Assembly: GCF_008757455.1 (NCBI RefSeq) | Contig: NZ_VCMV01000024.1 | Coordinates: forward strand, 102,782 to 166,781 | DNA from: Microvirga brassicacearum | GTDB lineage: Bacteria; Pseudomonadota; Alphaproteobacteria; Rhizobiales; Beijerinckiaceae | Reading direction: 5' to 3' | DNA: 64,000 nt | In this document: in pieces, positions 11,179 to 55,241 of the stretch | Layout of the letters: each line of letters opens with the position of its first letter | Position numbering within the stretch: position 1 is the first letter of the stretch | Program-made: the position numbers and the translations under genes | Notes under the pieces: generated by a model | The model's database searches: none | The model's input: only the letters and a program-made list of their open reading frames with translations | Told to the model about the DNA's origin: nothing

Positions 11179-11196
11179 GCGCGATCGGACGAAGCC

Positions 11197-16087: not shown

Positions 16088-16112
16088 CTGATTGTCGGGC
16101 TTGCACAATCAG
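16088..16112. promoter_or_regulatory. Perfect 8-bp inverted repeat before the UbiH-like gene
   Basis: CTGATTGT (16088-16095) and ACAATCAG (16105-16112) form a perfect dyad with a 9-base spacer. It ends 8 bases before the ATG at 16121 and overlaps the GGGGACAG ribosome-binding region. It lies in the 220-base divergent region shared with the BMP importer operon. It could be an operator for either gene or an mRNA hairpin. Confidence 0.35.
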
Positions 16113-16120
16113 GGGACAGC

Positions 16121-40184: not shown

Positions 40185-40688
40185 ATGGGCGATGCGATCG
40201 AATCCCTGCGACGCGAACTCGAAGACGCTTTCCAGAACAGGGCGCATCTCTACCGGTTGATGCTGGATGAACTCGAGAGCGAGGTCGGCCACGACCGGGC
40301 AGTCGTGCTCATGTCGCGCGCGCTTGAGCGTCGCGGACGAGAGGTTGCGGCCGTGCTCTTCTCCGATACGCCGCCGGAACCTGAGGCGGTCGGCCGGCGC
40401 TTCCTTTCGGTCAGTCCCGATGGCGGGCGGATGTATCCGCACGAGGCTGAGGTCACGCCGTGCGCGATGGAGATCCGGGTCCATCGCTGCCCGCTGAAGG
40501 ATGCGTGGCGCGCCTCCAACCTGCCGGCCGATCGCGTTGCCACCCTGTGCCGTCTCGCCGGAGCCTTCGACAAGGGATTGTTCGAAGCCGCGGGCGTAGG
40601 TTTCTCCAACGCCACCTGGAGCGAGCAGCGCGGCGGTGGCTGCTGCTGGATCAAGCTGGAGCAACCGGATCAGGTCGCCGGCGGCTAA
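40185..40688 (+). CDS. ATC-hydrolase-family-like protein (divergent copy)
   Basis: A 167-residue cytosolic protein that looks like a diverged member of the L-2-amino-thiazoline-4-carboxylic acid hydrolase (ATC hydrolase) family. It has an N-terminal helix with ELEDAFQNRAHLYRLMLDEL, MSRALERRGREVA, then IRVHRCPLKDAW, TLCRLAGAFDKGLF and GGGCCWIKLE. The order VxRC, LC, then a cysteine before a final strand parallels the gene at 43075. Start ATG 40185 has GGAGG at optimal spacing (40171-40175), better than 40131 or 40176. It is followed by the glyoxalase-fold gene. The catalytic residues of the family are not clear to me, so activity is unproven. Confidence 0.65.
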   Translation: MGDAIESLRRELEDAFQNRAHLYRLMLDELESEVGHDRAVVLMSRALERRGREVAAVLFSDTPPEPEAVGRRFLSVSPDGGRMYPHEAEVTPCAMEIRVHRCPLKDAWRASNLPADRVATLCRLAGAFDKGLFEAAGVGFSNATWSEQRGGGCCWIKLEQPDQVAGG

Positions 40689-40754
40689 CGTGCCGACACG
40701 ATCGTCTTACTCCACCCCGCAAGAAATCGCATTTCACCCGTATGGATTTTTAAA

Positions 40755-41597
40755 ATGTCCCAGCCCGTTCCCGTTCTCGATCACGCCGTCGTCAATGTTC
40801 TGGGAGAACTAGATCGCGCGGCCGAACAATATCGCCGGCTCGGTTTTCAACTCAGCGAACGCGGGCATCATACGCTCGGCTCAAGCAACCATCTGGCAAT
40901 TTTCGGCGAGAATTATCTCGAACTTCTCGGCTTCGAACCGGGGCGGCAGACCGAACGGGCCGACTTGTGGAAGCATCCCGCCGGCCTCACCGGCCTCGTC
41001 TTCAAGACCACCGACTCGCTTGGCCTGCACGCCGATTTGTCCCAAAAGGGCATCCCGGTCGAGAACCCTGCCGAGTTCTCGCGTCCGGTCGCCCTCCCCG
41101 ATGGATCCCGCGACGCATCGTTTCGGGTCGTGCGGCTCGGGACGCAACTGGTTCCAAACGGGCGCGTCTTCTTCTGCCATCACTTCACGCCCGAACTGGT
41201 CTGGCGCGACGAGTGGCGGCAACATCCGAACGGCGTCACCGATATCGTCGAGTTCATCATCGCGGCCACGGATCCGCAAAAGACCTCCGACCTCTATCGC
41301 TCGATATTCGGCGCCCAAGCCATCACCAACCTGCCGGATGGCGCCGCCTTGCGGGCGGGCCGTGCCACCGTGCTTTTTCTAACACCGCAGGAGGTCGAAA
41401 ATCGGTTCGGCGAGGACGCAGCTCCCATCAGCGCGGACGGCACCGATCGGATGGTTGCGCTCACCCTGAAGACGCGCTCGCTCGCAAAGGTCGACGCGCT
41501 TCTTGTCACGAACGGCGTTGCGTTCGAGCGGGAGGAAGAGCGGATCGTCGTGCCGCACACGGATGCGGAAGGCGTCGCCCTCGCGTTCGTGGAATAA
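40755..41597 (+). CDS. VOC/glyoxalase-like domain protein
   Basis: A 280-residue protein of the vicinal-oxygen-chelate superfamily, resembling the Glyoxalase_3-type group with two beta-alpha-beta-beta-beta modules. The N-terminal module opens PVLDHAVVNVLGELDRAAEQ with the metal-ligand-like histidine in LDH. Y-x-ELLGFEPGR, the HHFTPELVWRDEW segment in mid-protein and the second module (DIVEFIIAATDPQKTSDLYR, IFGAQAITNLPDGAAL) follow. Such proteins isomerise, hydrolyse or cleave small substrates using a metal. It is 66 bases after the ATC-hydrolase-like gene and converges on the flavoprotein gene of the facing operon (2-base gap). Confidence 0.85.
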   Translation: MSQPVPVLDHAVVNVLGELDRAAEQYRRLGFQLSERGHHTLGSSNHLAIFGENYLELLGFEPGRQTERADLWKHPAGLTGLVFKTTDSLGLHADLSQKGIPVENPAEFSRPVALPDGSRDASFRVVRLGTQLVPNGRVFFCHHFTPELVWRDEWRQHPNGVTDIVEFIIAATDPQKTSDLYRSIFGAQAITNLPDGAALRAGRATVLFLTPQEVENRFGEDAAPISADGTDRMVALTLKTRSLAKVDALLVTNGVAFEREEERIVVPHTDAEGVALAFVE

Positions 41598-41599
41598 TT

Positions 41600-43063
41600 T
41601 TACCGTCGGACGAAGAACGGGGTGCCCTGCAGTTCCGGCTCGTCGAACGCCTCTAGCGTGCGGCGGATCGGGCCGATATCCTCGCGGAACAGGCTCTTGA
41701 CGATGGCGCTCGACACCCTTTCGGCCGCCACGTTGACGCCCGGAATATCGCTTGCAATCGCGCCGTGGCTGAGCGCCGCTCCGTGATTGACGAGGTGAAT
41801 GCGCGAGATATCCGGGCAGCATCCGGGTTCCCGCTCGAGCAATTCGAATCCCTCGCCGAGATAGGGAAAGTCGCCGAGCTCGGGCCGCCGCAGATCGCTC
41901 GGCGGTTCGTAGCGGTCCCGCCAGCGCGCGGTGAACGACGACAATGCGGCGATCTCCGGGATTGACTCAGCGTCCACCTGAAAGCCGGTTCCGACGATGA
42001 GGAAATCGTGCACCGTCGGCTGATCCGTCCCGCGGATGCGAACCAAGGCCTTGTCGTCCAGCCGCTGCGCTCTTTCGACAGGTTGGCCAAGATGAATATG
42101 AAACGCCGCCTGCCGCAAGGCCCGCCGTACCGTCTCATGCGGCGGCGGCGCCTGAACGTCGTTGAGGTAAGCGAACAAGGCCCAGCGCTCCGCATCGTCG
42201 AGCGCGCTCCAACCGTGAAAATAGCCCGGCGAGGCAGAGCCGCGGCCCTTGTTGATCTGCGGCAGGCTGTGGCGTCGCACATACATGTCCACACGCGCGG
42301 CCCCTTTCTCAAGGGCCGTCGCCGCATTGTCCCAGGCCGACGCACCGCCGCCGACAACGCCGATGCTGCGGCCGCGCAGCTGCGCGAAATCGATGGTCTC
42401 ATTGGTGTGGGCGGCGAGATCCGGCCAAAGGTCCGCGTCGATGAAGTCCGGAATCTTGTCGCCGCCGGCGCCGCCGCGTCCGGTCGCCAGCACGACGCGG
42501 CGCGCGAAAAACGTGCTCGCGCCGCGCGGCGCCTCGGTGTCGATTTTCAGCAATCCGTCAGCGGGCGTGATGCGCGTCACCGCGATCTCATGCTCGACCG
42601 GCAGGCTCAGGACACGCTGCAGAAAGGCGAGATAATCGACCCAGGTCGCGTTCTCGATCTTGTAGAGCGTGTCCCACGCTTCCGGACCGAACGCGGCCTC
42701 ATACCACGCGCGGAAGCTCAATGAGGGAATTCCCAGAGCAGGACCCGGCAATGTCTTGGGCGACCGCAACGTGTCCATGCGCGCGAATGTCAGCCACGGG
42801 CCTTCATTGCCCGCAGATGCACGCTCCAGGATCCGGATGTTGCGCACACCCTTGAAGATCAGGGCTGCGGCTGCGGCGATGCCGTTCATCCCGGCGCCCA
42901 CCACGACCACATCGGTGACGGCATTTCCATCCGCCGTGCGGACGCTGGCCGGCCAGTTGGCGGCCGGAAGGTTGAGAATTTCCAGATCGCGGGCGATCCG
43001 GCGTTCAAGGTCACCGATGCCGCTCTCCGACGACAGGACGATGCTGTGCAACAGGCTATCCAC
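41600..43063 (-). CDS. FMO-like NAD(P)/FAD-dependent oxidoreductase
   Basis: A 487-residue flavoprotein with two dinucleotide folds. The FAD motif is VVVGAGMNGIAAAAALIFKG near residue 53 and the NADPH motif is IGVVGGGASAWDNAATALEK near residue 225. Between them is a flavin-monooxygenase-like substrate segment (LTFARMDTLRSPKTLPGPAL). It resembles bacterial FMO/Baeyer-Villiger-type proteins annotated as NAD(P)-binding proteins, but the classic FMO fingerprint is not exact. It is the last gene of the six-gene operon, 11 bases after the ATC-hydrolase-family gene, so it probably oxidises the same compound or its product. The substrate is unknown. Confidence 0.85.
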   Translation of the reverse strand: MDSLLHSIVLSSESGIGDLERRIARDLEILNLPAANWPASVRTADGNAVTDVVVVGAGMNGIAAAAALIFKGVRNIRILERASAGNEGPWLTFARMDTLRSPKTLPGPALGIPSLSFRAWYEAAFGPEAWDTLYKIENATWVDYLAFLQRVLSLPVEHEIAVTRITPADGLLKIDTEAPRGASTFFARRVVLATGRGGAGGDKIPDFIDADLWPDLAAHTNETIDFAQLRGRSIGVVGGGASAWDNAATALEKGAARVDMYVRRHSLPQINKGRGSASPGYFHGWSALDDAERWALFAYLNDVQAPPPHETVRRALRQAAFHIHLGQPVERAQRLDDKALVRIRGTDQPTVHDFLIVGTGFQVDAESIPEIAALSSFTARWRDRYEPPSDLRRPELGDFPYLGEGFELLEREPGCCPDISRIHLVNHGAALSHGAIASDIPGVNVAAERVSSAIVKSLFREDIGPIRRTLEAFDEPELQGTPFFVRR

Positions 43064-43074
43064 GTCGTCCCCGC

Positions 43075-43554
43075 TCAGGCTTGTGCATCCGATTCATAGC
43101 GGTAGCGGAAATCGCAATGGCTCGCGCCTTCCATGATCGTCTGCGTGCGCGTCATCTTGAGCCTGGGGTCATAGCCCTCGCAGAACGAGCCATCGCGGTT
43201 GCACGACAACAGGCCGCCGATCTCGCCAAGCCCCATCGCCTTGTACATCTCGGCATAGCGGCAGCGCGTGACGTTGAAGTCGAAATGCGTGTCGTCGCGA
43301 TGCAGCGGCTCGATTTCGAGGGCGCTTTCGGCGGTCCAGTTCGACTGGATGTCGATGAAGCTCTGAAGGCTGGTGCTGCCCTCCGCTTGCTTGGCGAATT
43401 GCGCCGCCTGCGCGATCGACGATCGACGCACGGATTCGGAGATGACGCGCTTGGCCTCCACCTTCCCATGCCGTTCGACGAGCGTCGTGTAGACCTCCTT
43501 CAGAAGCTCGGCCTCGATGCGGCGACGCTCGATGATCGGGAGAGTTTGGGCCAT
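43075..43554 (-). CDS. L-2-amino-thiazoline-4-carboxylic acid hydrolase family protein
   Basis: A 159-residue cytosolic protein with the full pattern of the ATC-hydrolase family. An N-terminal helix pair (ELLKEVYTTLVERHGKVEAK, SESVRRSSIAQAA) precedes NVTRCRYAEMYKAMGLGEIG, LLSCNRDGSFCEGYDP, TRTQTIMEGASHCDFRYRYE. The named Pseudomonas enzyme opens the thiazoline ring of a cysteine precursor to carbamoyl-cysteine. The family is broad and includes amidine- or carbamoyl-type substrates in my understanding, so the exact substrate is open. ATG 43554 is chosen; 96 bases of upstream frame are not protein-like. It lies between the importer ATPase (20 bases) and the flavoprotein (11 bases). Confidence 0.88.
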   Translation of the reverse strand: MAQTLPIIERRRIEAELLKEVYTTLVERHGKVEAKRVISESVRRSSIAQAAQFAKQAEGSTSLQSFIDIQSNWTAESALEIEPLHRDDTHFDFNVTRCRYAEMYKAMGLGEIGGLLSCNRDGSFCEGYDPRLKMTRTQTIMEGASHCDFRYRYESDAQA

Positions 43555-43574
43555 TTTGGGTGCTCCGTTCTGAC

Positions 43575-45239
43575 TTAAAGGAGTTGCGGCGCGAATTCGC
43601 GCGTGTCGGCAAGGGCAAGCACCGCATCCGGCGAGACGGGCGGTGTCCAATCCCGGCCGGGAACCGAGGCCAGCAGCGCTTTCGTGTAAGGATGGCGCGG
43701 CGCTGTGAAGACCTCCGCCGTCAGACCTTCCTCCACCACTTCGCCGTCTTTCATCACCGCGATGCGATCGCAGATCTGGGCGGCGACACGCAGGTCGTGG
43801 GTGATGAAGACCATGGAGAGACCGAGGCGCTTGCGCAGATCCGCCAGCAGCCGCAAGACCTGCGCCTGAACCGACACATCGAGAGCGGAGACCGGCTCGT
43901 CCGCCACCAGAACCTCAGGCCCCAGCGCCAGCGCCCGCGCCAATCCGATGCGCTGTCGCTGGCCGCCGGAGAATTCATGCGGATAGCGCTCCGTCGAGTC
44001 GGGATCGAGGCCGACAAGCGCGAACAGTTCTTTTGCCCGCGCGAGTGCGCGCTCGCGGGTTTCGCCGTGGATGATCGGCCCCTGCGCCACCAGTTCGCCG
44101 GCCTTGCGACGAGGATTCAAGGATGCGAACGGGTCCTGATAGACCATCTGGATACGCCGCGTCGCCGCGCGCATTTCTTTTCGCGAAAGGCTCGCCAGAT
44201 CCGTATCGCCGAGCCTGATCGAGCCCTGGTCCGGGTCGAGCAATCTCACCATGCAGCGGGCCAGCGTCGATTTGCCGGAGCCGCTTTCGCCGACGATGCC
44301 CAGCGTTCCACCCCGCGGCAGGACGAGGTTTGCATCCTTGACCGCATGCGTGACGCGGCGGTGGCGGGCCAGCAGGCCGCCCTTGCGGTAGGTTTTCGAG
44401 ACGTGCTCGATGCGCAGGATGATCTCGCTGCCGGTCATCTGCGGTGGCGGCGGCACGAGCGGCGGCACGGCTGCGATCAGCGCGCGCGTGTAGGGATGCT
44501 GCGGGTCGTTGAGGACATCGATGGCCGGTCCCTCCTCGACCAGCAATCCCTTCTGCATCACCGCCACACGGTCGGCGATTTCGGCGACGACACCGAAATC
44601 GTGCGTGATGAAAAGCACCGCGGTGCCCTTACGCTGCTGCAGCTCGCGGATGAGCTTCAGAATCTGCGCCTGCGTCGTCACGTCGAGCGCCGTGGTCGGC
44701 TCATCGGCGATGAGCACGCGCGGCTCCAGCGCCAGCGCCATCGCGATCATCGCACGCTGGCGCTGGCCGCCGGAGAGTTCGTGCGGGTAGGCGCGACGCG
44801 CGGCTTCCGGATCGGGAATGTGAACGTCGCGGAGAAGATCGAGGACGCGCGCTCTGATTTCCGACGAGCGAAGCGTCGTATGTGTCTCGAACATCTCGCC
44901 GATCTGGTCGCCGATGGTGCGCAGCGGATTGAGCGCCGTCATCGGCTCCTGAAAGATCATGCCGATCCGCGCGCCTCGGATCTGCTGCATCTGCGCATCG
45001 TCGAGAGTGAGCAGGTCCTGGCCTTCGAGTAGAATCTTGCCGGCGATCGCCTGAACCCCGTCGGGCAGAAGGCCCAGGATGGCGCCCGCCGTCATAGACT
45101 TGCCGGAGCCGCTCTCGCCGACAACGCACAGGATCTCGTTCGGATGAAGCTCCAGCGAGACGTTCTCGAGCGCACGCGGCCGGTCCGCGCCGGGCGGCAG
45201 GGCGACGGTGAGTGAATCGATGGTGAGAATGGCACTCAT
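43575..45239 (-). CDS. Dipeptide-type ABC transporter, fused double ATP-binding protein
   Basis: 554 residues with two complete ABC domains fused, equivalent to DppD plus DppF. The first has [34 protein letters not shown] and [12 protein letters not shown]. The second has [39 protein letters not shown] and [11 protein letters not shown]. Each is followed by the oligopeptide-transporter C-terminal element ([18 protein letters not shown] and [16 protein letters not shown]), which often carries Fe-S or regulatory cysteines in other members but not clearly here. Start ATG 45239 overlaps the permease stop by 4 bases. The open frame to 45926 runs through that permease and is not used. Confidence 0.94.
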
Positions 45240-46066
45240 CGGCGCTTCAATCTCGGGTTCAGCGCGTCGTTGAGCCCTTGCCCCACCAGCGACACGGCGA
45301 GCACCGTCAGCAGAATGACGATTCCGGGAATCGCCGACACGTACCATTGCGTGCGCAGCACGGACCGGCCGGTGCCGATGAGGTTGCCCCAGGACGGCAC
45401 GTTGGGATCGGAAAGGTTGAGGAAGGCCAGCGCGCTCTCCAGCAGGATCGCCGTTGCCATGATGACGCTCGCATAGACGATGACGGGAGGAAGCGCGTTG
45501 GGCAGGATTTCGCGAAAGATGATCTGAACATCGCGCATCCCGAGCGTCCGTGAGGCCTGCACGAATTCCCGGCTCCGAAGCGTCAGGAATTCGGCGCGGG
45601 TCAGCCGGGCGGAGGCCGGCCACGAGACGAGGCCGATGGCGATGGTGACCGTCTTGATGTCGGAGCCGAAGACCGCGACCAGCACCAGAAGCAGCAGGAA
45701 ATTCGGCAGGGTCTGAAACGCTTCCGTAATGCGCATCAGCACGTCGTCGACGAGACCGCCATAATAGCCCGCCAGCGCGCCGAGCACGATGCCGATGGTG
45801 ATCGCCAGCAGCGTGGCGACGATGCCGATGAGCAGCGAGATGCGCGCGCCGTGGAAGATCTGCGCGGCGATATCGCGGCCGGTGGTGTCGGTTCCGAGCC
45901 AGAAGCGCGAATTGACGAACGGCCATTGCAAGGGGCGCCCGGCAAGACCCAGAGGATCCCGCGGGAAAACCAGCGGCGCGGTCAGCGCCATCGCGACCAC
46001 CAGGAAGAGAAGCAGAAGACCGACGATTGCGGCGGGACTTTTGGCAAGGCGTGCAACGGTTTCCAT
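45236..46066 (-). CDS. Dipeptide-type ABC transporter permease (DppC-like)
   Basis: A 276-residue permease with six hydrophobic helices and the N-terminal LPLQWPFV-like segment followed by FWLGTDTTGRDIAAQIFHGA, typical of DppC proteins. The ATPase-coupling EAA loop is around EFLTLRSREFVQASRTLGMR, with VQIIFREILPNALPPVIVYA. It is 8 bases after the DppB-like gene and overlaps the ATPase start by 4 bases. Confidence 0.93.
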   Translation of the reverse strand: METVARLAKSPAAIVGLLLLFLVVAMALTAPLVFPRDPLGLAGRPLQWPFVNSRFWLGTDTTGRDIAAQIFHGARISLLIGIVATLLAITIGIVLGALAGYYGGLVDDVLMRITEAFQTLPNFLLLLVLVAVFGSDIKTVTIAIGLVSWPASARLTRAEFLTLRSREFVQASRTLGMRDVQIIFREILPNALPPVIVYASVIMATAILLESALAFLNLSDPNVPSWGNLIGTGRSVLRTQWYVSAIPGIVILLTVLAVSLVGQGLNDALNPRLKRR

Positions 46067-46074
46067 CGCCGGCC

Positions 46075-47046
46075 TCAGGTCACGATGCGCGGATCGAGGC
46101 GCGCATAAAGAAGATCGACGATGAAGTTGACGGCAATCACCAGAAGCGCGGACACGAAGACGATGCCGAGCAATGTGTTGAGATCGCGCTGCACGACGGA
46201 TTCGTAAGCCAGCCGGCCGAGCCCCGGCAGGGCGAAGACGCTTTCCACCACGATGGAGCCGCCCAGCATGGTGCCGGCCTGCAACCCGATGAGCGTCACC
46301 ATGGGAAGAAGCGCATTGCGCAGCACGTGACGACGAACCACCCGCCCCGGGCTGAGCCCCTTGGCGCGCGCCGTGCGGACGAATTCAAGATTCAGGACTT
46401 CGAGCATGGAGGCGCGCATGATCCGCAAATATGTGGCGAGGAAAATCAGCGCGAGCGTCAAGGTCGGCAGAAAGAGATGCCAGGCGATGTCGAGGGCGCG
46501 GCGGAAGCCGGTATAGCCGGCCCCGATTTCCTCGAAGCTGCCAGCCGGCAGCCAGCCGAGATTGACGGCGAAGATGACGATTCCCATCAGGCCGAACCAG
46601 AACGAGGGCGTTGCGTAGAAGATGAGGCCCAGCGTCGAGATCAGCGTGTCGGGCCAGCGGTTGACCTTGCGCGCCGCCAGCACCCCGAGCGCCATCCCGC
46701 CCGCGAAGGCGAAGCTCAAGGCCGACATCATCAGCAGCAGCGTGGCAGGGAGGCGTTCGAGGATCACCGCCGAGACGGGTTTGCCGTAGATGGCCGAAAA
46801 GCCGAGATCGAGTTGCAGCAGGCGCCAGATATAGCGACCGAGCTGAACGGCGACAGAGACGTCGAGCCCGTAATACCGGCGCAATTCCTCCATCATTACG
46901 GGGTCGCCGCCGCCCATCTGGGCGACGAGCGCGTCTACGGTATCGCCGGGGGCGAGTTGCAGCAGCAGGAACAGACCTGCCAACACCACGAAGAGCGTTG
47001 GCAGGCTGGCCGCGAGGCGGCGCAGGGCAAGGAGAAGAACGCGCAT
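46075..47046 (-). CDS. Dipeptide-type ABC transporter permease (DppB-like)
   Basis: A 323-residue permease with a first helix around RLAASLPTLFVVLAGLFLLL, the APGDTVDALVAQMGG periplasmic segment and GLDVSVAVQLGRYIWRL. The EAA loop is near EFVRTARAKGLSPGRVVRRH, followed by LRNALLPMVTLIGLQAGTML, all typical of DppB/OppB. ATG 47046 is used. It lies 4 bases from the binding-protein stop, so coupling is likely. Confidence 0.93.
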   Translation of the reverse strand: MRVLLLALRRLAASLPTLFVVLAGLFLLLQLAPGDTVDALVAQMGGGDPVMMEELRRYYGLDVSVAVQLGRYIWRLLQLDLGFSAIYGKPVSAVILERLPATLLLMMSALSFAFAGGMALGVLAARKVNRWPDTLISTLGLIFYATPSFWFGLMGIVIFAVNLGWLPAGSFEEIGAGYTGFRRALDIAWHLFLPTLTLALIFLATYLRIMRASMLEVLNLEFVRTARAKGLSPGRVVRRHVLRNALLPMVTLIGLQAGTMLGGSIVVESVFALPGLGRLAYESVVQRDLNTLLGIVFVSALLVIAVNFIVDLLYARLDPRIVT

Positions 47047-47050
47047 GTCT

Positions 47051-48652
47051 TTAAGATGACGCGATCCAGGTGTCGTGCCAATCGCTTGAATCCCAACGCG
47101 GCACATTGTGATGATTCTGGATCTGCCGGCTCGTCGCGGCGAAGAACTTGCGCTCCGTGATCATCCAGACCGGAATCTCCTCGTTCACCGCCGTCACCCA
47201 ATCCGCATAGAGCGCCTTGCGCTTCACCGGATCGATCTCGCTCGCCGCCTGATCGATCAACTGGTCGACCTTGTCGGATTGCCAGCCCCATTGATTGGTC
47301 CAGGGCGAGCCCTTGGGCGAACCGGAGCGGTACCAGACCGTGGTCGAAACCGCCGGGTCGCCGCGATATTGATGCCAGCCGGTAGCAAGATCGAAATTCC
47401 AGTCGCGATAGACCGTGGTGAGTGCGCCCGCGATATCGAGCTGCACGATCTCGACCTTGATCCCAACATCGCCCAGCGATTGCTGGATGAAGGTGGCAAG
47501 CAGCGGCACATCCTCGCCGTTCATGATCGGAACGATCTTCAAGGTGAAACGGGTTCCCCCGGCGCCGCGCTTGTAGCCGGCCTCGTCGAGCAGCGCCTCG
47601 GCCTTCTTCTTGTCGAAGGGGTAAGGCGGCTTGCCGGCGGGATAGAAGGCAGGCGACGAGGACGGGATCGGGCCGGTGGCGGGTTTCGCCTGGCCGTAGA
47701 GGAAGTTCTCGATGAAGAACTCCACGTCGATCGCATGGGCGATGGCGCGCCGCACGCGCACATCCGCCAGTTCCTTGCGGCGGGTGTTGAATTCGAGCGT
47801 GTTGTTGAAGGCGTTCGCCTCGATGCCGCGGGTCGAGACCTCGAAACGTTCGTCGCCTTTCAGCCGGTCGAGATCAGACAGGGACAATCCGTTATAGGAG
47901 CTGAGCTGGATCTGGCCGGTCTCGAGAGCAGCCGCGACCGCCGATTTGTCGGTGATCACGCGCCACACGATACGATCGAGATACGGAAACTCCTTGCGCC
48001 AGTAATTCGGGTTGCGCTCGGCGATGATGAATTGGCCGCGCTCGTACTGCACGAACTTGAACGGACCGGTGCCGATCGGTGCGGTATTGGCCGGGTTCTC
48101 CAGGATATTGGTGCCCTCGAAGATATGGCGGGGCGCGATGTAGCCGAGATCGCAAAGGGCGCGCAGAAGCAGGTCCAGCGGCATCGGGCGCGAGTAGCGG
48201 AACACGGCGGTGTGTGCATCCGGCGTATCGACGGCTTCGAGATATTGCTGCAGCTGGGTGCCGTAGTTGAGATGCTTCTTCCACATCTCGAGCGCGGTGT
48301 ACTGGACGTCCGCGGACGTGAAAGGCTTGCCGTCATGCCACGTCACACCTTGGCGGAGCTTGAACGTGATGGTCTTCCCATCCGGCGCGGCATCCCAGCT
48401 TGTGGCGAGCACCGGCGCTGGGTTGCCCTTGGCGTCGAGATCGACGAGCGCCTCCATGATCTTGCTGGTGATCAGGTAGACGCCGGTCGACGCGCGCAGG
48501 GCCGGGTTGAGAATCCGCTGCTCGGAGCCGAGATGGACCGTGAACACCCCGCCGCGCTTCGGGGTCTCCTGCGCGAACGTGGCACGAGGGAGAAAGCCGC
48601 TGGCGGCGAAGGCGGTCGCGGACAACAACGCGTGGCGACGGGTCAGGCGCAT
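47051..48652 (-). CDS. Family-5 ABC transporter substrate-binding protein (dipeptide-type importer)
   Basis: A 533-residue periplasmic binding protein with a twin-arginine signal (MRLTRRHALLSATAFAA, cleavage near TFAQE) and the family-5 features GGVFTVHLGSEQRILNPALR, TITFKLRQGVTWHDGKPFTS, AVAAALETGQIQLSSYNG and RRAIAHAIDVEFFIENFL. ATG 48652 has GAGGGA at good spacing. It heads the six-gene operon ending in the ATC-hydrolase and flavoprotein genes, so its ligand is probably the substrate of those enzymes or its precursor. The frame starting at 48715 is longer but lacks support. Confidence 0.93.
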   Translation of the reverse strand: MRLTRRHALLSATAFAASGFLPRATFAQETPKRGGVFTVHLGSEQRILNPALRASTGVYLITSKIMEALVDLDAKGNPAPVLATSWDAAPDGKTITFKLRQGVTWHDGKPFTSADVQYTALEMWKKHLNYGTQLQQYLEAVDTPDAHTAVFRYSRPMPLDLLLRALCDLGYIAPRHIFEGTNILENPANTAPIGTGPFKFVQYERGQFIIAERNPNYWRKEFPYLDRIVWRVITDKSAVAAALETGQIQLSSYNGLSLSDLDRLKGDERFEVSTRGIEANAFNNTLEFNTRRKELADVRVRRAIAHAIDVEFFIENFLYGQAKPATGPIPSSSPAFYPAGKPPYPFDKKKAEALLDEAGYKRGAGGTRFTLKIVPIMNGEDVPLLATFIQQSLGDVGIKVEIVQLDIAGALTTVYRDWNFDLATGWHQYRGDPAVSTTVWYRSGSPKGSPWTNQWGWQSDKVDQLIDQAASEIDPVKRKALYADWVTAVNEEIPVWMITERKFFAATSRQIQNHHNVPRWDSSDWHDTWIASS

Positions 48653-48939: not shown

Positions 48940-50697
48940 TCAGCTGCGCTTGGGCGGCGTTGCCGGCCAGCTCTTGATCAGGGTGTCGTAATCGACCGTC
49001 TCGCCCTTCGGCTTTTCATTCGCGAGCTTGCGCTGGGGCGCGACGTTGCCCGAGGCCTCGGCTTTTTTGAACCAATCCTCGGCAGAGGTCTTCGGGTTGA
49101 GCTTGGGGCCGCACTCGCCCTGTACACCCGCCCGCTCCAACCGACCGAGCACCTCGTCCTGGCCTTCCGCCAACGCGTCCATCGCCGCCTGCGGTGTTTT
49201 TGCGCCGGACGATGCGTCACCGATATTCTGCCACCAGAGCTGCGCCATCTTCGGATAGTCCGGGATGTTGTTTCCGGTCGGCGTCCATTGCACGCGAGCG
49301 GGCGAACGGTAGAACTCCACCAAGCCGCCAAGCTGCGGTGCGCGATCGGTGAAGCTCTTGTCCCAGATGTCGCTGTCGCGGATGAAGGTGAGGCCGACAT
49401 GACTCTTCTTCAGCGACACGCTCTTCGACGTGACGAACTGCGCATAGAGCCAGGCCGCCTTGCGACGCTCGACAGGGGTCGATTTGAGCAGCGTCCACGA
49501 TCCCGCATCCTGGTAGCCGAGCTTCATACCTTCTTTCCAATAGGAGCCGTGGGGCGACGGGGCCATGCGCCATTTCGGCTTCCCGTCCGTGTTCATCACC
49601 GGCAGGCCCGGCTTCACCATGTCGGCCGTGAATGCGGTGTACCAGAACATCTGCTGCGCGATGTTGCCTTGGGCCGGAACCGGCCCGGATTCCGAGAACG
49701 TCATGCCGGCTGCCTGCGGAGGCGCGTATTTCTTCAGCCAATCGAGATATTTGGCGATCGAATAGACGGCCGCCGGGCCGTTGGTATCGCCACCGCGATC
49801 GACCGAGGAGCCGACGGGACGGCAGCCTTCCATGCGAACGCCCCATTCATCGACAGGTTTGCCGTTCGGGATGCCCTTGTCGCCATTGCCCGCCATCGAG
49901 AGCCAGGCATCGGTGAACCGCCATCCGAGCGACGGGTCCTTCTTGCCGTAGTCCATGTGGCCGTAGACCTTTACCCCGTCGATCTCCTTGATGTCGTTGG
50001 TGAAGAACTCCGCGATGTCCTCATAGGCCGACCAGTTGACCGGCACGCCGAGATCGTAGCCGTACTTCGCCTTGAACTTCTCCTTGATGTCGGGCCGTTG
50101 GAACCAGTCGTAACGGAACCAGTAGAGGTTCGCGAATTGCTGATCCGGCAACTGGTACATCTTGCCGTCCGGCGCGGTGGTGAAGGAGCGTCCAATGAAG
50201 TCGGCAACGTCTAGGGTCGGCAAGGTCACGTCCTTGCCTTCGCCGGCCATCCAGTCATCGAGGGGAATGGCCTGCTTGTAGCGAAAATGCGTGCCGATGA
50301 GGTCGGAATCGTTGACCCACGCATCGTAGATGTTCCGGCCGGATTGCATCTGGGTCTGGATCTTCTCCACCACGTCGCCCTCTTGGATGAGGTCGTGGGT
50401 GAGCTTGATGCCGGTGATCTCGGTGAACGCCTTGGCGAGCGTCTTCGCCTCATATTCGTGCGTCGTGATGGTCTCCGAGACGACGTTGATCTCCATGCCG
50501 GCGAAGGGTTTCGCCGCATTCACGAACCATTCCATTTCCTTCATCTGCTCGTCCTTGGAGAGCGTCGAGGGCTGGAATTCGGCGTCGATCCATTTCTTGG
50601 CCTCGTCCATTCCGGCAAACGCCGTGCCGCTGCCGAGCACCATGGCCAGGACGCTGGTCGAGAAGAGGAGTCTCAGGTGTTGTGAGGTTGGTTTCAT
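48940..50697 (-). CDS. glpV: Glycerol ABC transporter substrate-binding protein GlpV
   Basis: A 585-residue family-1 binding protein with a Sec signal (LLFSTSVLAMVLGSGTAFAG). The mature part shows AKPFAGMEINVVSETITTHE, IYDAWVNDSDLIGTHFRYKQ, FTTAPDGKMYQLPDQQFANL and PQLGGLVEFYRSPARVQWTP. Length and gene order match GlpV of the rhizobial GlpSTPQUV glycerol importer, which feeds glycerol kinase and GlpD, neither seen in this window. It is last in the operon with a hairpin just after it. Assignment rests on operon context and recall of the family; erythritol- or mannitol-type relatives are possible. Confidence 0.85.
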   Translation of the reverse strand: MKPTSQHLRLLFSTSVLAMVLGSGTAFAGMDEAKKWIDAEFQPSTLSKDEQMKEMEWFVNAAKPFAGMEINVVSETITTHEYEAKTLAKAFTEITGIKLTHDLIQEGDVVEKIQTQMQSGRNIYDAWVNDSDLIGTHFRYKQAIPLDDWMAGEGKDVTLPTLDVADFIGRSFTTAPDGKMYQLPDQQFANLYWFRYDWFQRPDIKEKFKAKYGYDLGVPVNWSAYEDIAEFFTNDIKEIDGVKVYGHMDYGKKDPSLGWRFTDAWLSMAGNGDKGIPNGKPVDEWGVRMEGCRPVGSSVDRGGDTNGPAAVYSIAKYLDWLKKYAPPQAAGMTFSESGPVPAQGNIAQQMFWYTAFTADMVKPGLPVMNTDGKPKWRMAPSPHGSYWKEGMKLGYQDAGSWTLLKSTPVERRKAAWLYAQFVTSKSVSLKKSHVGLTFIRDSDIWDKSFTDRAPQLGGLVEFYRSPARVQWTPTGNNIPDYPKMAQLWWQNIGDASSGAKTPQAAMDALAEGQDEVLGRLERAGVQGECGPKLNPKTSAEDWFKKAEASGNVAPQRKLANEKPKGETVDYDTLIKSWPATPPKRS

Positions 50698-50787
50698 TTT
50701 TTCCTCCGGTTGTGTTTTGAGGCCGACTTTCGCGTCGGTCTTTTCCCGTCGGCTCCTGTGAGCCGGAAGGACTTTGGCCGCAATGCT

Positions 50788-51069
50788 TCACACGTAGCGA
50801 AACACCGCAGCCGCGTAGGCAAGCGAGAGACCAAGCGCCCACACGGGATCGGGGCCCATCAGCCCGAGCCACGCGAGGTTGATGAATGCTGCACCGAGCA
50901 GCGAAATGAAAAGGCGGTCGCCGCGCGTCGTCGGGATGCGCAGGATGCCCACGCGCTCCGTCTCCGGGAACAACACCGCCAGCACCGTCATGACTAGGAG
51001 AAGCGCGCCGATGACGCTGAAGAAGAGCGCCGTCTGCCACGTCCAGGCCATCCACGAGAAATCAGGCAT
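50788..51069 (-). CDS. glpU: Small membrane protein GlpU (DUF2160)
   Basis: A 93-residue protein with three hydrophobic helices (MAWTWQTALFFSVIGALLLV; TVLAVLF; LFISLLGAAFINLAWLGLMG; ALGLSLAYAAAVFRYV) matching DUF2160. It is the small subunit encoded between glpQ and glpV in rhizobial glycerol operons, with function not established in my knowledge. It is separated from glpQ by a 210-base stretch containing a palindromic repeat, and from glpV by 90 bases. Confidence 0.82.
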   Translation of the reverse strand: MPDFSWMAWTWQTALFFSVIGALLLVMTVLAVLFPETERVGILRIPTTRGDRLFISLLGAAFINLAWLGLMGPDPVWALGLSLAYAAAVFRYV

Positions 51070-51088
51070 GCGAGCGACCTATTTTCTC

Positions 51089-51247
51089 CTCTCCCCCTTG
51101 CGGGGAGAGGCCGGGAGTGGGGGTCGAAACGTCAAAGTGTTCGTTCTCAGTTTGGGATGAGACCCGCGCTACCAGTGAGCTCTTTTCTTCACGCTCCCAT
51201 CCGGCGGCACCACCCCTACCCCTGGCCCGTCCCCGCAAGGGCGAGGG
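51089..51247. repeat. Palindromic repeat inside the glp operon (CTCTCCCCCTTGCGGGGAGAGG type)
   Basis: The left arm at 51089-51125 (CTCTCCCCCTTGCGGGGAG, then AGGCCGGGAGTGGGGGTC) is imperfectly complementary to the right arm at 51209-51247 (ACCACCCCTACCCCTGG to CAAGGGCGAGGG). The left arm also folds on itself (CTCTCCCC / GGGGAGAG). It lies between glpQ and glpU, so read-through RNA carries a long hairpin. I recall similar units in many Hyphomicrobiales genomes. Confidence 0.75.
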
Positions 51248-51279
51248 AAAATGCGTCGTCGTCGCGCATGCCATTTCCA

Positions 51280-52161
51280 TCACACCCTTCCCAACGCAAA
51301 ACCCTTGGCGATGTAGTTTCGGACAAACCAGATCACGAGCGCACCCGGCACGATGGTGAGGACGCCGGCGGCGGCCAACAGACCCCAATCCATCCCGGCA
51401 GCCGAGACCGTGCGCGTCATCGTGGCGGCAATCGGCTTGGCGTTGACGCTGGTGAGCGTGCGCGCCAGCAGCAATTCGACCCATGAGAACATGAAGCAGA
51501 AGAACGCCGCGACGCCGACGCCGCTGGCGATGAGCGGCATGAAGATCTTCACGAAGAAGCGCGGAAACGAATAGCCGTCGATGGCGGCCGTCTCGTCGAT
51601 CTCGCGCGGGACGCCGGACATGAAGCCTTCCAGAATCCAGACCGCCAGCGGCACGTTGAACAGGCAATGCGCCAAGGCCACCGCCCAGGGCGTATCGAAC
51701 AGGCCGATGGCCGAATAGAGATTGAAGAACGGCAGCGCGAAAACGGCGGCCGGCGCCATGCGGTTGGAGAGCAGCCAGAAGAACAGGTGCTTGTCGCCCA
51801 CAAACCGGTAGCGCGAGAACGCATAAGCCGCGGGAAGCGCCAGCGTGATCGACAAAACCGTGTTGATGGCGACATAGGTCAGGGAATTGATGTAGCCGCC
51901 ATACCAGCTCGGATCGGTGAAGATCTTGGCATAATGCTCGAAGGTGATCTCCTGCGGCCACAGGGTCATGGTCGTGGAGATCTCGGTGTTGGTCTTGAGG
52001 CTCATGTTGATGAGCCAGTAGATCGGCAGCATCAGAAACAGCAGGTAGAGCACCATCCCGATCGCGCTGCCGCTGACCCAGGAGCCCGTCAGCGCGCGGT
52101 TGACCTTCGCCTGCGAGGGTGCGGCGGTTTGCGAGCCCCTGAGGATGACGACGTCGCTCAT
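51280..52161 (-). CDS. glpQ: Glycerol ABC transporter permease GlpQ
   Basis: A 293-residue MalG-type permease. The first helix is around GMVLYLLFLMLPIYWLINMS. TNTEISTTMTLWPQEITFEH is the typical extracellular loop before the ABC core. The EAA loop, FMSGVPREIDETAAIDGYSF, precedes the last helices. ATG 52161 overlaps the glpP stop by 4 bases, and the longer frame to 53409 crosses glpP. The C-terminus reads AKGFALGRV. Confidence 0.9.
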   Translation of the reverse strand: MSDVVILRGSQTAAPSQAKVNRALTGSWVSGSAIGMVLYLLFLMLPIYWLINMSLKTNTEISTTMTLWPQEITFEHYAKIFTDPSWYGGYINSLTYVAINTVLSITLALPAAYAFSRYRFVGDKHLFFWLLSNRMAPAAVFALPFFNLYSAIGLFDTPWAVALAHCLFNVPLAVWILEGFMSGVPREIDETAAIDGYSFPRFFVKIFMPLIASGVGVAAFFCFMFSWVELLLARTLTSVNAKPIAATMTRTVSAAGMDWGLLAAAGVLTIVPGALVIWFVRNYIAKGFALGRV

Positions 52162-53051
52162 GCCTCCACCCTCTCGCGATCGGCATCGGCGTTGGTCATG
52201 ACCGTGTAGAAGATCCAGCACACCACCAGGATGATGAGGTTGTAGACGATCGACATGGCGGCGGCCTTGCCGAGATCGAACTGTCCGAGCGCCAGCTTCA
52301 CCAGGTCGATGGACACGAAAGTCGTAGCGTTGCCGGGCCCTCCCCCGGTCAGCACGAACGGTTCGGTATAGATCATGAACGAATCCATGAACCGCAGGAG
52401 AACGGCGATCAGCAGGACCCGCCGCATCTTCGGCAACTGGATGGTGCGGAAAACCGCCCAGCGCGAGGCGCCGTCGATGCGGGCCGCCTGATAGTAAGCG
52501 TCGGGGATGGACTTCAGGCCCGCATAGCAGAGCAAAGCCACAAGACTTGTCCAGTGCCAGACATCCATGACGATGATGGTGATCCAGGCATCCAGCGTGT
52601 GGCCGGTATAGTTGAAGTCGATGCCCAGACGATTGACCGTCCAGCCGAGCAACCCGATATCGCCGCGGGCGAAAATCTGCCAGATGGTGCCGACGACGTT
52701 CCAGGGGATCAGCAGCGGCAGCGCCATCAGGACGAGGCACGCGGCCACCTTCCAGCCTTCGCGCGGCATGGCGAGGGCAACGGCGATGCCGAGCGGCACT
52801 TCGATGGCGAGGATGATCGCCGAAAACAGCAGGTTGCGCCACAGCGCGTCGAAAAACCGGCCGCCGAGTTCCTTTGAGGGATCGAGCAGATCCTGAAACC
52901 AGCCGACTCCGTTCCAGAAGAACTGGTTGTTGCCGAACGTGTCCTGCACCGAATAATTCACCACCGTCATGATCGGCAGGATCGCCGAGAACGCCACGAT
53001 GGCGAAGACCGGCAGGACGAGAAACCACGCCCGGTTGTTGACGACCTTCAT
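52158..53051 (-). CDS. glpP: Glycerol ABC transporter permease GlpP
   Basis: A 297-residue MalF-type permease. The first helix is around FLVLPVFAIVAFSAILPIMT, then VNYSVQDTFGNNQFFWNGVG. The EAA loop, SIPDAYYQAARIDGASRWAV, is followed by QLPKMRRVLLIAVLLRFMDS, and the late EPFVLTGGGPGNATTF motif is typical of sugar-type permeases. ATG 53051 overlaps the glpT stop by 4 bases and its own stop overlaps glpQ by 4, so the chain is translationally coupled. Confidence 0.9.
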   Translation of the reverse strand: MKVVNNRAWFLVLPVFAIVAFSAILPIMTVVNYSVQDTFGNNQFFWNGVGWFQDLLDPSKELGGRFFDALWRNLLFSAIILAIEVPLGIAVALAMPREGWKVAACLVLMALPLLIPWNVVGTIWQIFARGDIGLLGWTVNRLGIDFNYTGHTLDAWITIIVMDVWHWTSLVALLCYAGLKSIPDAYYQAARIDGASRWAVFRTIQLPKMRRVLLIAVLLRFMDSFMIYTEPFVLTGGGPGNATTFVSIDLVKLALGQFDLGKAAAMSIVYNLIILVVCWIFYTVMTNADADRERVEA

Positions 53052-54148
53052 GACGCGGGCCTCCGCACAGGCTCGCCGGCCATGAGATGTCCGTCCGCGT
53101 AAATATGGACATGCCGGGTGTCGAAGAAGAGCGCGGCTTCGTCCCCGGTGACCGACACGTTGTCGGGCACGCTCGCCGACATGGCGCGCCCGGCCATCTC
53201 GACCCGCGCGATGCGCGCCCGGCCGATATCGTCGATGCGCCGCACCCGCGCGGGAAAGCCGAAGCCCTTCGGCTGCAACTGCACGAATTCGGGCCGGATG
53301 CCGAGTTCGATCCGCTGCCCCTGCCGTAAAGCCGGATAGGCGCGCAGCAATTTGATCGCCTCGTTGTCGAGATAGGCCGTCGCGCCGTCGACGCGGCAGG
53401 GCAGGACATTCATGCCGGGCGAACCGATGAAATGGCCGACGAAGGTGTGGGCCGGGCGCTCGAACAATTCCTCGGGCGTCCCGGTCTGCACCACCGCGCC
53501 GTCGTGCATGACCACCACCTTGTCGGCGAATGTCAGCGCCTCGGTCTGGTCGTGCGTCACATAGATCATGGTGATGTCGAGAAGCCGATGGATCTCCTTG
53601 AGGGTCGAGCGGAGCTGCCACTTGAGGTGCGGGTCGATGACGGTGAGGGGTTCGTCGAACAGGATTGCGGCGACGTCGGACCGGACGAGGCCGCGCCCGA
53701 GCGAGATCTTCTGCTTCATGTCCGCCGTGAGGTTGCGCGCCTTGCGGTCGAGAACGCGCGTGAGGTCGAGCAGGCGCGCGATTTCCTCGGCGCGGGCAGC
53801 GGTCCTGTCGGCCGGCACGTGCCGGTTCTTCAGCGGGAAGGCTAGGTTTTCGCGCACCGTCATGGTGTCGTAGACGACCGGGAACTGGAACACCTGCGCG
53901 ATGTTGCGGGCCTCCGTCGGCAGGTCGGTCACGTCCCGATCATCGAACAGGATGCGCCCGCGGCTCGGCCGCACCAGACCCGAAATGATGTTGAGAAGCG
54001 TAGTCTTGCCGCAGCCCGACGGCCCGAGCAGCGCATAGGCGCCGCCCTGCTCCCACACGTGATCGATCTCCTTCAGCGCATAATCCTGCGGTCCCTTCGG
54101 AGCCGGTCCGTAGGCATGAGCGAGGTGATCGAGGGTGATGCGCGCCAT
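53048..54148 (-). CDS. glpT: Glycerol ABC transporter ATPase GlpT (degenerate signature)
   Basis: A 366-residue ATPase with Walker A GPSGCGKTTLLNI, Walker B AAILFDEPLTVIDP and switch histidine in YVTHDQTEALTFADKV. The expected LSGGQ signature is replaced by LTADMKQK near residue 130. A TOBE/MalK-type C-terminal domain with LRQGQRIELGIRPEFVQLQ follows. ATG 54148 is used. It pairs with GlpS, whose signature is intact but whose switch histidine is missing, so one composite ATP site is canonical and the other is not. It is 7 bases after glpS. Confidence 0.9.
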   Translation of the reverse strand: MARITLDHLAHAYGPAPKGPQDYALKEIDHVWEQGGAYALLGPSGCGKTTLLNIISGLVRPSRGRILFDDRDVTDLPTEARNIAQVFQFPVVYDTMTVRENLAFPLKNRHVPADRTAARAEEIARLLDLTRVLDRKARNLTADMKQKISLGRGLVRSDVAAILFDEPLTVIDPHLKWQLRSTLKEIHRLLDITMIYVTHDQTEALTFADKVVVMHDGAVVQTGTPEELFERPAHTFVGHFIGSPGMNVLPCRVDGATAYLDNEAIKLLRAYPALRQGQRIELGIRPEFVQLQPKGFGFPARVRRIDDIGRARIARVEMAGRAMSASVPDNVSVTGDEAALFFDTRHVHIYADGHLMAGEPVRRPAS

Positions 54149-54155
54149 GGAGCCC

Positions 54156-55241
54156 TCAAGCAGCTTCCGCAAAATCGGCCGCCACGAGGCGGCCGTTCTG
54201 GTCAAACAGAAAAACGTCGCGCGCATCGAGATAGAGCGTCACGGAGGCGCCCGGCTCGAGCCGCTTCACCCCCGGCACCAGCGCGACAAAGCGGCGCTCG
54301 GCGGAATCCACATGGAGGTAGGTCTCCGAGCCGGTGATCTCGGAGACCGAGACGATGCCGGAAATGGCGAGAATGTCGCTGCCGTCAGCCTCGAGACCGA
54401 GATGGTGGGCGCGAAAGCCCACCCGGTATTCCCCATCCGGCACCATGGCAAACGCGCCGCCGGCAGGAGCCTCGCCGCCGGTGCTCAGGCTTACGGTCTC
54501 GCCGGATTTCCGGGCCGCGAGCACGTTCAATGGCGGATCGGAAAAAACCTGTGCGGTGACGAGATCATGCGGCTGCCGATAGACCCGCGGCGTCGGGCCG
54601 AACTGCGTCAGACACCCTTGCGAGAGCGTCGCGGTATTGCCGCCCAGAAGAAGCGCCTCCGTCGGCTCGGTCGTCGCATAGACGAAGATGCCTCCGGAGG
54701 CCGCGAAGACGCGCGGCAGTTCCTCGCGAAGCTCCTCCCGCAATTTGTAATCGAGATTTGCCAGCGGCTCATCGAGCAGCACCAGATCGGCGCGCTTGAC
54801 CAGGGCCCGCGCGATTGCCGTTCGCTGCTGCTGACCGCCGGAGAGGTTGAGCGGCTTGCGGTCGAGATAAGGCTCAAGCTGCAGGAGGCGCGCCGCTTCC
54901 CGCACCCGCATCTCGATTTCCGATGCCGCAAGCTTCGCGACGCGGAGGGGCGACGCGATGTTCTCGTAGACGCTGAGCGACGGGTAGTTGATGAATTGCT
55001 GGTAGACCATCGCGACGCTGCGGCGTTGAACCGGCCATCCCGTCACGTCTTTTCCGTCAACGATCACGCGGCCGGAACTTGGCGCGTCGAGTCCCGCCAT
55101 CAGGCGCATGAGCGAGGTTTTTCCGGCCAGGGTCGGGCCCAGCAGCACGTTGAGGGAGCCGCGTTCGAGGGACAGGGAAACGTCGCTGATCCAGGTTTCG
55201 GCGCCGACTTTCTTGCTGACATTGTCGAGAACCAGCGTCAC
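54156..55241 (-). CDS. glpS: Glycerol ABC transporter ATPase GlpS (no switch histidine)
   Basis: A 361-residue ATPase with Walker A GPTLAGKTSLMRL, an intact signature NLSGGQQQRTAIARALV near residue 135 and Walker B LVLLDEPLANLD. The switch region reads FVYATTEPTEALLLGG where VTHDQTEA is usual, so the catalytic histidine is absent. The C-terminal regulatory domain shows PDGEYRVGFRAHHLGLEADG. It starts with GTG 55241, with GGGAGGG at good spacing. First gene of the glpSTPQUV operon; no glpR, glpD or glpK is nearby. Confidence 0.9.
   Translation of the reverse strand: MTLVLDNVSKKVGAETWISDVSLSLERGSLNVLLGPTLAGKTSLMRLMAGLDAPSSGRVIVDGKDVTGWPVQRRSVAMVYQQFINYPSLSVYENIASPLRVAKLAASEIEMRVREAARLLQLEPYLDRKPLNLSGGQQQRTAIARALVKRADLVLLDEPLANLDYKLREELREELPRVFAASGGIFVYATTEPTEALLLGGNTATLSQGCLTQFGPTPRVYRQPHDLVTAQVFSDPPLNVLAARKSGETVSLSTGGEAPAGGAFAMVPDGEYRVGFRAHHLGLEADGSDILAISGIVSVSEITGSETYLHVDSAERRFVALVPGVKRLEPGASVTLYLDARDVFLFDQNGRLVAADFAEAA

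Follow-up and report, generated by a model that had tools for sequence, protein, structure and literature searches.

A Microvirga locus that joins a Dpp-type importer to PF14196 proteins and a flavin monooxygenase: a candidate operon for uptake and breakdown of a non-peptide compound

Importers of the Dpp/Opp type are very common. The proteins of the PF14196 family share a cluster of three conserved cysteines, which the V4R phenol sensors have as well, according to the available portion of PMC5847659. The family is named for an enzyme of the DL-ATC route, which the accessible part of a review (PMC10821248) describes as a racemase, ATC hydrolase and a carbamoyl-cysteine amidohydrolase; no monooxygenase is included in that description. 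Searches of the open-access literature by enzyme name or by PF14196, together with the best matches of broader searches, returned no operon of the kind described below. One paper on flavin-dependent chemistry and alkyl-cysteine sulfoxide (PMC10863075) matched through its reference list only, as far as its available text goes.

Here we describe such a locus in the window, by which we mean the whole 64,000-nt stretch of DNA that was analysed. It contains eight genes:

40185..40688, plus strand: ATC2, a divergent PF14196 protein of 167 aa with three Cys in common with ATC1.
40755..41597, plus strand: VOC protein of 280 aa, Glyoxalase_3 (PF13468, 106 bits against a cut-off of 25.1), convergent with the FMO gene.
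41600..43063, minus strand: FMO, an NMO/FMO-like flavoprotein monooxygenase of 487 aa with a GTG start (PF13738, PF13434).
43075..43554, minus strand: ATC1, a PF14196 ATC_hydrolase protein of 159 aa (123 bits).
43575..45239, minus strand: DppDF, a fused two-domain ABC ATPase of 554 aa (PF00005, 206.5 bits, in two stretches).
45236..46066, minus strand: DppC-type permease of 276 aa (PF00528, 111.5 bits; OppC_N, 25.8 bits).
46075..47046, minus strand: DppB-type permease of 323 aa (PF00528, 141.3 bits, with a longer start used in the scan).
47051..48652, minus strand: family-5 solute-binding protein (SBP) of 533 aa (PF00496, 300 bits, with a longer start used in the scan).

The six minus-strand genes, from SBP through DppB, DppC, DppDF and ATC1 to FMO, are separated by 4, 8, -4, 20 and 11 bases, exactly as an earlier note on this DNA had given them; the DppB start was picked 4 bases past the SBP stop. 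The same note spoke of an importer fused in one operon with the enzymes; the word fused applies to DppDF and not to the rest. ATC2 and the VOC gene face this run, with 2 bases between the VOC and FMO stops, and the ATG of ATC2 is preceded by AAGGAGG. The SBP signal, judged by eye, is of the twin-arginine type. Scans for promoters and terminators gave no excess over shuffled sequence, and no tRNA lies within the window. When compared with M. antarctica, dN/dS is 0.05-0.15 for all eight genes (0.05 for ATC2, whose dS of 2.5 is near saturation), and from these sequence comparisons all eight look constrained.

Within Microvirga, the genomes with an ATC1 orthologue (at least 84% identity) and those with an FMO orthologue (at least 70%) are the same 8 of 48, neither gene being present alone, and the two matches are less than 100 bases apart in all eight, indicating that the association is more than chance. 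The importer, with SBP identity of at least 88%, is present in all seven relatives read. The unit is inherited whole within the genus, with the full set absent from 40 of the 48 sampled genomes. At the locus itself ATC2 is absent in 2 of 8 genomes, in M. lupini an in-frame stop interrupts it, and the VOC gene is likewise absent in 2 of 8. The MarC/Na-Pi flanking genes accompany the operon in only one of seven relatives in the flanking stretch examined.

Outside the genus the picture is different. The six-gene order, which the earlier note had proposed to look for in other genomes, proved to be confined to Microvirga: ATC1 is near FMO at none of 61 other FMO loci (flanking stretch examined), the two genes are adjacent only in the window among the 22 order-sample genomes that have both, and the class sample shows the adjacency in 0 of 7. 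The idea of a widespread six-gene pathway was therefore rejected, on the 61 loci and the order and class samples. So was the idea that ATC1 accompanies FMO genome-wide: an ATC1-type match (47-78% identity) exists in 23 of 48 searched genomes with a non-Microvirga FMO, none of them near FMO in the flanking stretch examined. A possible ATC1 and FMO locus outside the genus is the P0060/P0229 pair (ATC1-like 74%, FMO-like 60%), for which contigs of equal length, 468086, are listed. This importer is missing at 57 of the 61 other FMO loci in the flanking stretch examined. Importer and FMO, often with VOC, are nevertheless found together in Bradyrhizobium, in Acetobacteraceae MAGs and in one further genome; ATC1 is lacking at these loci (L124, L137, L166, L179 and L089), and a PF13468 gene adjoins at L089 and L124. 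As the full order is unseen outside the genus, it is made of two separable modules that were joined in this lineage.

The components of the importer are those of the Dpp/Opp set: SBP_bac_5, two BPD_transp_1 proteins and a two-domain ABC ATPase. In E. coli DppA, Asp408 is the residue that binds the alpha-amine of the peptide. The aligned column holds Tyr in 11 of 11 SBP orthologues, which argues against ordinary dipeptides as the ligand. The column of Arg355 is a gap in all of them, but the alignment is poor there. The SBP matches 10 NCBIfam models, each with a score under the cut-off; against the equivalog models of DppA, OppA, NikA and GsiB its best score is 198 bits, where 650 are needed.

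The FMO protein matches PF13738 (70.5 bits) and PF13434 (30.7 bits, cut-off 21.3). In 15 aligned rows the FAD motif G56-A-G-M-x-G61 is invariant, and the NADPH motif G238-G-G-A-S242 is invariant or nearly so. FMO thus carries both dinucleotide motifs as well as the family match of the Class B / N-hydroxylating flavoprotein monooxygenases. As a single query it finds no solved structure by sequence search at E 0.001, while its alignment finds two weak matches. The predicted model (pLDDT 79.8) has PvdA, putrescine N-hydroxylase and KtzI as top Foldseek matches and so resembles amine N-hydroxylases, although in structure comparison the Z of N-hydroxylases ties with that of YpdA and of ordinary FMOs (SmFMO). 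The earlier note called the protein an FMO-like flavoprotein; the modelled fold looks most like N-hydroxylating monooxygenases. Among 80 loci of FMO relatives, 25 have a CMD neighbour (TIGR04029 type), 27 a peroxidase-related one (TIGR01926 type) and 8 an octopine-dehydrogenase-family gene.

Apart from ATC1 and ATC2, the 5.2 Mb genome contains no PF14196 match. ATC2, with 30.7 bits against the family cut-off of 28.1, does belong to the family, as had been claimed for a second ATC-hydrolase-like protein, though as a divergent paralogue. C98, C118 and C147 of ATC1 are invariant in 97 of 97 ATC1-type rows and the same columns in 17 of 17 ATC2-type rows, counted after removal of identical and short matches. 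Structure prediction, which had been put forward earlier as a check, gives ATC1 a V4R/TRAPP/H-NOX-type fold (pLDDT 86.2) that contains these three cysteines. The best PDB matches of the model include the phenol-sensor domains of PoxR, MopR and DmpR as well as Bet3; among the matches listed most are sensors and trafficking subunits, not hydrolases. Sequence search for ATC1, with the single sequence or the alignment, found no solved structure at E 1.

PF14196 also has a life apart from this importer. The family is matched in 89 of 297 order-sample genomes, yet in the open-access literature a single paper contains the term PF14196 and three contain the enzyme's full name. Just one gene is present in 67 of the 89, and of the 22 genomes with two or more, two copies lie at most 10 kb apart in 14 and not in 8; ATC1 therefore often does without ATC2. 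In all 13 paired genomes other than that of the window, the two genes lie on either side of a branched-chain-type ABC importer, unrelated to the one here and accompanied by a DAO (FAD) oxidase (13 loci), M20 (10), Lrp (7), a class-V aminotransferase (5) and an Asp/Glu/hydantoin racemase (4). The ATC1 proteins of the two kinds of pair form separate clades. Some cases count against a simple rule of pair with importer: at loci L098 and L113 ATC1 accompanies the branched-chain importer with no ATC2, and in genomes G577 and G477 a distance of 5.8 kb separates two ATC1-type genes. In G577, by eye, no importer lies between the two, and next to one of them are TRAP-importer-like and D-amino-acid-dehydrogenase-like genes.

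Our preferred reading, held tentatively and at a little below an even chance, is that the operon serves the uptake and catabolism of a small non-peptide compound containing nitrogen, either a derivative of an amino acid or an amine of cyclic or amidine-like form, which is imported, oxygenated and hydrolysed. The analysis shows the order of the genes, their families, their constraint, their joint inheritance and the recurrence of the ATC1/ATC2 pair; how transport and catalysis could proceed is inferred. The exported SBP would capture the compound, and DppB, DppC and DppDF would bring it in. FMO, using NADPH and FAD, would then oxygenate it, most likely on nitrogen. ATC1 and ATC2, taken as two V4R-fold proteins with a three-Cys site that is probably metal-binding, would jointly or sequentially hydrolyse a ring or a C-N or C-S bond in the substrate or its oxygenated product, and the VOC protein may handle a product. 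The operon would have been built from an importer and FMO (and VOC) module and an ATC1/ATC2 module. The earlier proposal of a dedicated uptake and catabolism unit for a non-peptide small molecule is supported by the Tyr in the SBP, the whole inheritance in the genus and the PF14196 pair beside another amino-acid-type importer.

Several other explanations have to be weighed. ATC1 and ATC2 could be intracellular ligand-binding or regulatory proteins, like V4R in PoxR and MopR, that sense the compound or pass it on, leaving FMO as the main catabolic enzyme. The phenol-sensor and Bet3 matches, the cysteines shared with V4R sensors (PMC5847659, as far as available) and the PF14196 pairs flanking two importer types, as a binding module might, speak for this. 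We hold it to be unlikely; against it stand the enzyme behind the family name (PMC10821248, available part), the many ATC1 genes with no adjoining ABC importer (for example L095-L097 and L099-L102) and the absence, by Pfam, of a DNA-binding domain in either protein. Taken literally, the name suggests a true DL-ATC-to-cysteine sulfur route, where 2-aminothiazoline carboxylate or a near thiazoline is imported and opened by ATC1 and ATC2 while FMO acts on sulfur. The racemase-family and M20 genes of the 13-genome module would fit the known three steps; however, neither is found among the 12 genes scanned here (eight locus genes and four neighbours), and the route in the review's available account includes no monooxygenase. 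We consider this reading improbable.

Much the same low probability is given to uptake of the opine or metallophore type, with an N-substituted amino acid or metal complex imported and the amino acid or metal freed by FMO oxidation. Here the binding proteins that the SBP matches include NikA, CntA and those of the agrocinopine/AgaA type, the ATPase scores above the cut-offs for NikD, NikE, CntD and CntF (though above that of a dipeptide-ATPase subfamily model too), and some FMO relatives neighbour octopine-dehydrogenase-family genes. Against it, the SBP stays below the Nik and Cnt models (170 vs 393 and 104 vs 800), as do the permease scores, and the 12 genes scanned include no opine dehydrogenase. 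The least probable is that an ordinary peptide importer happens to lie beside unrelated enzyme genes. Restriction of the full order to one genus and the abundance of such importers would agree with meaningless adjacency, but complete co-occurrence of ATC1 and FMO in the genus despite a differing flank, the pairing of importer with FMO in two or more further lineages (Bradyrhizobium and Acetobacteraceae) and loss of the peptide Asp in every SBP orthologue do not.

A wider form of the preferred reading is more doubtful than that reading itself. ATC1 and ATC2 may be a two-component V4R-fold metallohydrolase that was joined on two occasions with importers and flavoenzymes of unrelated kinds. Two new catabolic routes would have arisen in this way, acting on heterocycles derived from amino acids or on N-oxidised amines: one with a Dpp-type importer and N-hydroxylating monooxygenase in Microvirga, the other with a branched-chain-type importer and FAD oxidase in three or more other families. 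If true, this would add a route of small-molecule uptake and ring opening, and show the V4R fold working as a two-part hydrolase. As the two-protein module recurs beside importers and flavoenzymes, its function is directly testable: the SBP of the importer would report the ligand, and the chemistry should come out alike in both types of operon.

Compared with known systems, the importer is like the Dpp/Opp/Nik family in its component set, while its SBP lacks the Asp408 equivalent and enzymes share the operon. The TIGR04028-04030 cassette (KPN_01854-type SBP, CMD and peroxidase-related proteins) resembles the neighbourhood of FMO relatives; in the window, however, the 12 genes scanned include neither a CMD nor a peroxidase gene, and the SBP of the locus reaches only 95.4 bits where the TIGR04028 cut-off is 468.5. 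The N-hydroxylating monooxygenases PvdA, KtzI, SidA and putrescine N-hydroxylase are about 11-18% identical to FMO and belong to siderophore synthesis, in contrast to the catabolic-looking operon here. ATC1 shares its predicted fold and three-Cys cluster with the V4R domains of PoxR and MopR, but is a stand-alone protein without a transcription-factor domain, in a family named for a hydrolase. Finally, the Pseudomonas DL-ATC route shares the PF14196 enzyme family with the window operon, and the related 13-genome module is alike in its racemase-family and M20 genes; the window operon is set apart by its pair of PF14196 paralogues and by the presence of an importer and a flavin monooxygenase.

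The operon layout given in the earlier note is borne out in full by the open reading frames with their starts and stops: six genes run together on the minus strand, the gaps between them being 4, 8, -4, 20 and 11 bases, and two further genes lie on the plus strand. All family matches are to Pfam models.

47051-48652, minus strand: SBP, a family-5 solute-binding protein (SBP_bac_5, 300 bits)
46075-47046, minus strand: permease DppB (BPD_transp_1, 141 bits)
45236-46066, minus strand: permease DppC (BPD_transp_1, 112 bits)
43575-45239, minus strand: DppDF, a fused two-domain ABC ATPase (ABC_tran, two stretches)
43075-43554, minus strand: ATC1 (PF14196, ATC_hydrolase, 123 bits; cut-off 28.1)
41600-43063, minus strand: FMO, an NMO/FMO-like flavoprotein monooxygenase (Pyr_redox_3, 70.5 bits; Lys_Orn_oxgnase, 30.7 bits)
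40185-40688, plus strand: ATC2, a divergent paralogue of ATC1 (ATC_hydrolase, 30.7 bits; cut-off 28.1)
40755-41597, plus strand: VOC protein (PF13468, Glyoxalase_3, 106 bits)

The FMO and VOC genes, on opposite strands, have their stops 2 bases apart, and ATC1 and ATC2 are the only PF14196 genes found in the whole 5.2 Mb genome. Compared with Microvirga antarctica, dN/dS is 0.05 to 0.15 in all eight genes, with dS near saturation (2.5) for ATC2; the comparison with M. lupini yielded no value for ATC2 or the VOC gene. Upstream of the SBP gene lies a second, unrelated ABC importer operon (48940-54226, minus strand); its binding protein has an SBP_bac_8 match below the cut-off, and its permeases and ATPase were read by eye.

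Among 48 Microvirga genomes, including that of the window, ATC1 has matches in 8 (E 1e-10 or better) and FMO in 13 (E 1e-20 or better). FMO at 70% identity or more and ATC1 at 84% or more occur in the identical set of eight genomes, always less than 100 bases apart, while the remaining five FMO-positive genomes hold homologues at 37-46% and have no ATC1 match. All four importer genes are kept in the seven relatives read (L115-L120, L158), at 81-92% identity. ATC2 and the VOC gene are each found at the locus in six of the eight genomes, the window counted; the M. lupini ATC2 has an in-frame stop, the two genomes without ATC2 at the locus carry a second PF14196 gene on another contig, and the M. 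rosea VOC gene lies across the importer, on its other side. In the stretch examined, the flanking genes MarC and Na-Pi of the window are beside the operon in only one of the seven relatives, M. antarctica, indicating that the unit stays whole while its surroundings vary.

A few other arrangements were seen in the genus. One genome (G018) has an additional ATC1-type gene (52%) away from the operon. In G017 (L013) and G009 (L010, L014) the final ~60 codons of an FMO-like gene adjoin a VOC gene and the rest of the operon is absent, which may be the remnant of a deleted operon. At L268 (G330) a related importer has an FMO homologue (36%) between its DppC-type (50%) and DppDF-type (63%) genes.

The earlier note had suggested looking for the same gene order in other genomes; beyond Microvirga, the full order was not found. 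Patterns built from an FMO alignment, scanned against 84,980 species genomes, gave 68 loci, 7 from Microvirga and 61 from elsewhere. At the 61, no ATC1 match was found in the flanks available, which reach at most 9 kb per side and are frequently truncated where a contig ends. Among 48 genomes with such a non-Microvirga FMO locus, an ATC1-type gene is present somewhere in 23. Of the 297 order-sample genomes, ATC1 has matches in 74, FMO in 53 and both in 22, with the two adjacent only in the window; of the 30 class-sample genomes with an ATC1 match, 7 also have one for FMO, adjacent in none of the 7. Two protein matches, one ATC1-like (P0060, 74%) and one FMO-like (P0229, 60%), are each listed with a contig of length 468086, so another locus linking the two may exist beyond Microvirga.

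Parts of the operon do recur. FMO adjoins the same importer (65-79% identity) at 4 of the 61 loci, one from Bradyrhizobium sp. U87765 (L124) and three from Acetobacteraceae MAGs (L137, L166, L179); at the other 57 the importer is absent from the stretch examined. Importer and FMO are also adjacent at L089 (G231), where FMO identity is only 44%. A VOC gene accompanies them at L124, L137 and L089, confirmed as PF13468 at L124 and L089. ATC1 was not found in the stretch examined at any of these five loci, so importer and FMO can associate independently of it. FMO relatives (L125-L157, L172 and L083-L094, among others) recurrently have genes for a CMD protein and for a peroxidase-related one beside them, frequently together with a gene for an aminotransferase or one of the octopine-dehydrogenase family; this flavin-monooxygenase cassette is apparently uncharacterised.

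PF14196 genes, too, form a recurring group. They are found in 89 of the 297 order-sample genomes, singly in 67 and as two or more copies in 22, and 14 of these 22 have two copies no more than 10 kb apart on the same contig, a pairing for which we estimate well under 1% under random placement. Each of the 13 pairs outside the window consists of one ATC1-like and one ATC2-like gene, with a five-gene branched-chain-type ABC importer between them and a DAO-family FAD oxidase at the locus. Some loci are incomplete, so counts of neighbours are minima: an M20 amidohydrolase at at least 10 loci, an Lrp regulator at at least 7, a class-V aminotransferase at at least 5 and an Asp/Glu/hydantoin racemase at at least 4. 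The ATC2 proteins of the six loci measured share 34-36% identity with that of the window. These loci (L103-L105, L107, L108, L110, L270-L276) are spread over three families, and the module looks like a separate catabolic operon of amino-acid or hydantoin/thiazoline type.

PF14196 genes also occur in other settings. At L251 (G577, 4722-17259) two ATC1-type genes lie 5.8 kb apart, one adjoining genes that by eye resemble a TRAP importer and a D-amino-acid dehydrogenase. Near the ATC1-like gene of L259 (9088-12096) are Asp/Glu/hydantoin racemase-family and LamB/YcsF genes. In family f20 (L096, L097, L099-L102) ATC1 homologues (61-68%) share one conserved chromosomal neighbourhood, with ATP synthase-like and gamma-glutamyl phosphate reductase-like genes (by eye) and no adjoining ABC importer.

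In a 97-row ATC1 tree the eight Microvirga rows form one clade (100/98), nested in a 30-row clade (97/82). For 14 of the other 22 rows of that clade the source genome carries just one PF14196 gene, and for 6 of the 22 no ATC2 match was found within about 19 kb. The 13 paired ATC1 rows, with one unpaired, make up a separate 14-row clade (100/99). As judged from these sequences the pair is present in two separated ATC1 lineages, and ATC1 is also common without ATC2; two origins, or a single origin followed by many losses, would both fit. Under either history, ATC1 and ATC2 are most likely jointly active in the paired operons.

SBP is 26% identical to E. coli DppA, and the column of DppA Asp408, which we take to be the residue holding the peptide alpha-amine, is Tyr in all 11 sequences aligned (window, seven Microvirga, L124, L179, L089). 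SBP also matched 10 NCBIfam models, scoring below the cut-off of each. This makes it unlikely that the ligand is an ordinary dipeptide. The ATPase passes several NCBIfam cut-offs, of dipeptide, nickel and staphylopine types, which leave the ligand undecided. Most likely the importer brings in a non-peptide nitrogen compound, which FMO would oxygenate, probably on nitrogen; ATC1 with ATC2 would hydrolyse the substrate or its oxidised form, and the VOC protein would handle a product. The sequence of these steps we infer.

The constituent parts are known families. Among the papers listed from an open-access library, in several cases the top of long lists, no account of the gene combination or of the recurring pair was seen. 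The known DL-ATC route, as given in a review (PMC10821248), consists of a racemase, ATC hydrolase and a carbamoyl-cysteine amidohydrolase. The window operon differs from it, as neither racemase nor M20 genes were found among the 12 window genes scanned, and its substrate is therefore probably a different one. In contrast, the branched-chain-type module is like this route, with its PF14196 pair and its amine-oxidase-type, M20 and sometimes racemase genes, a likeness that favours a ring-opening role for the pair.
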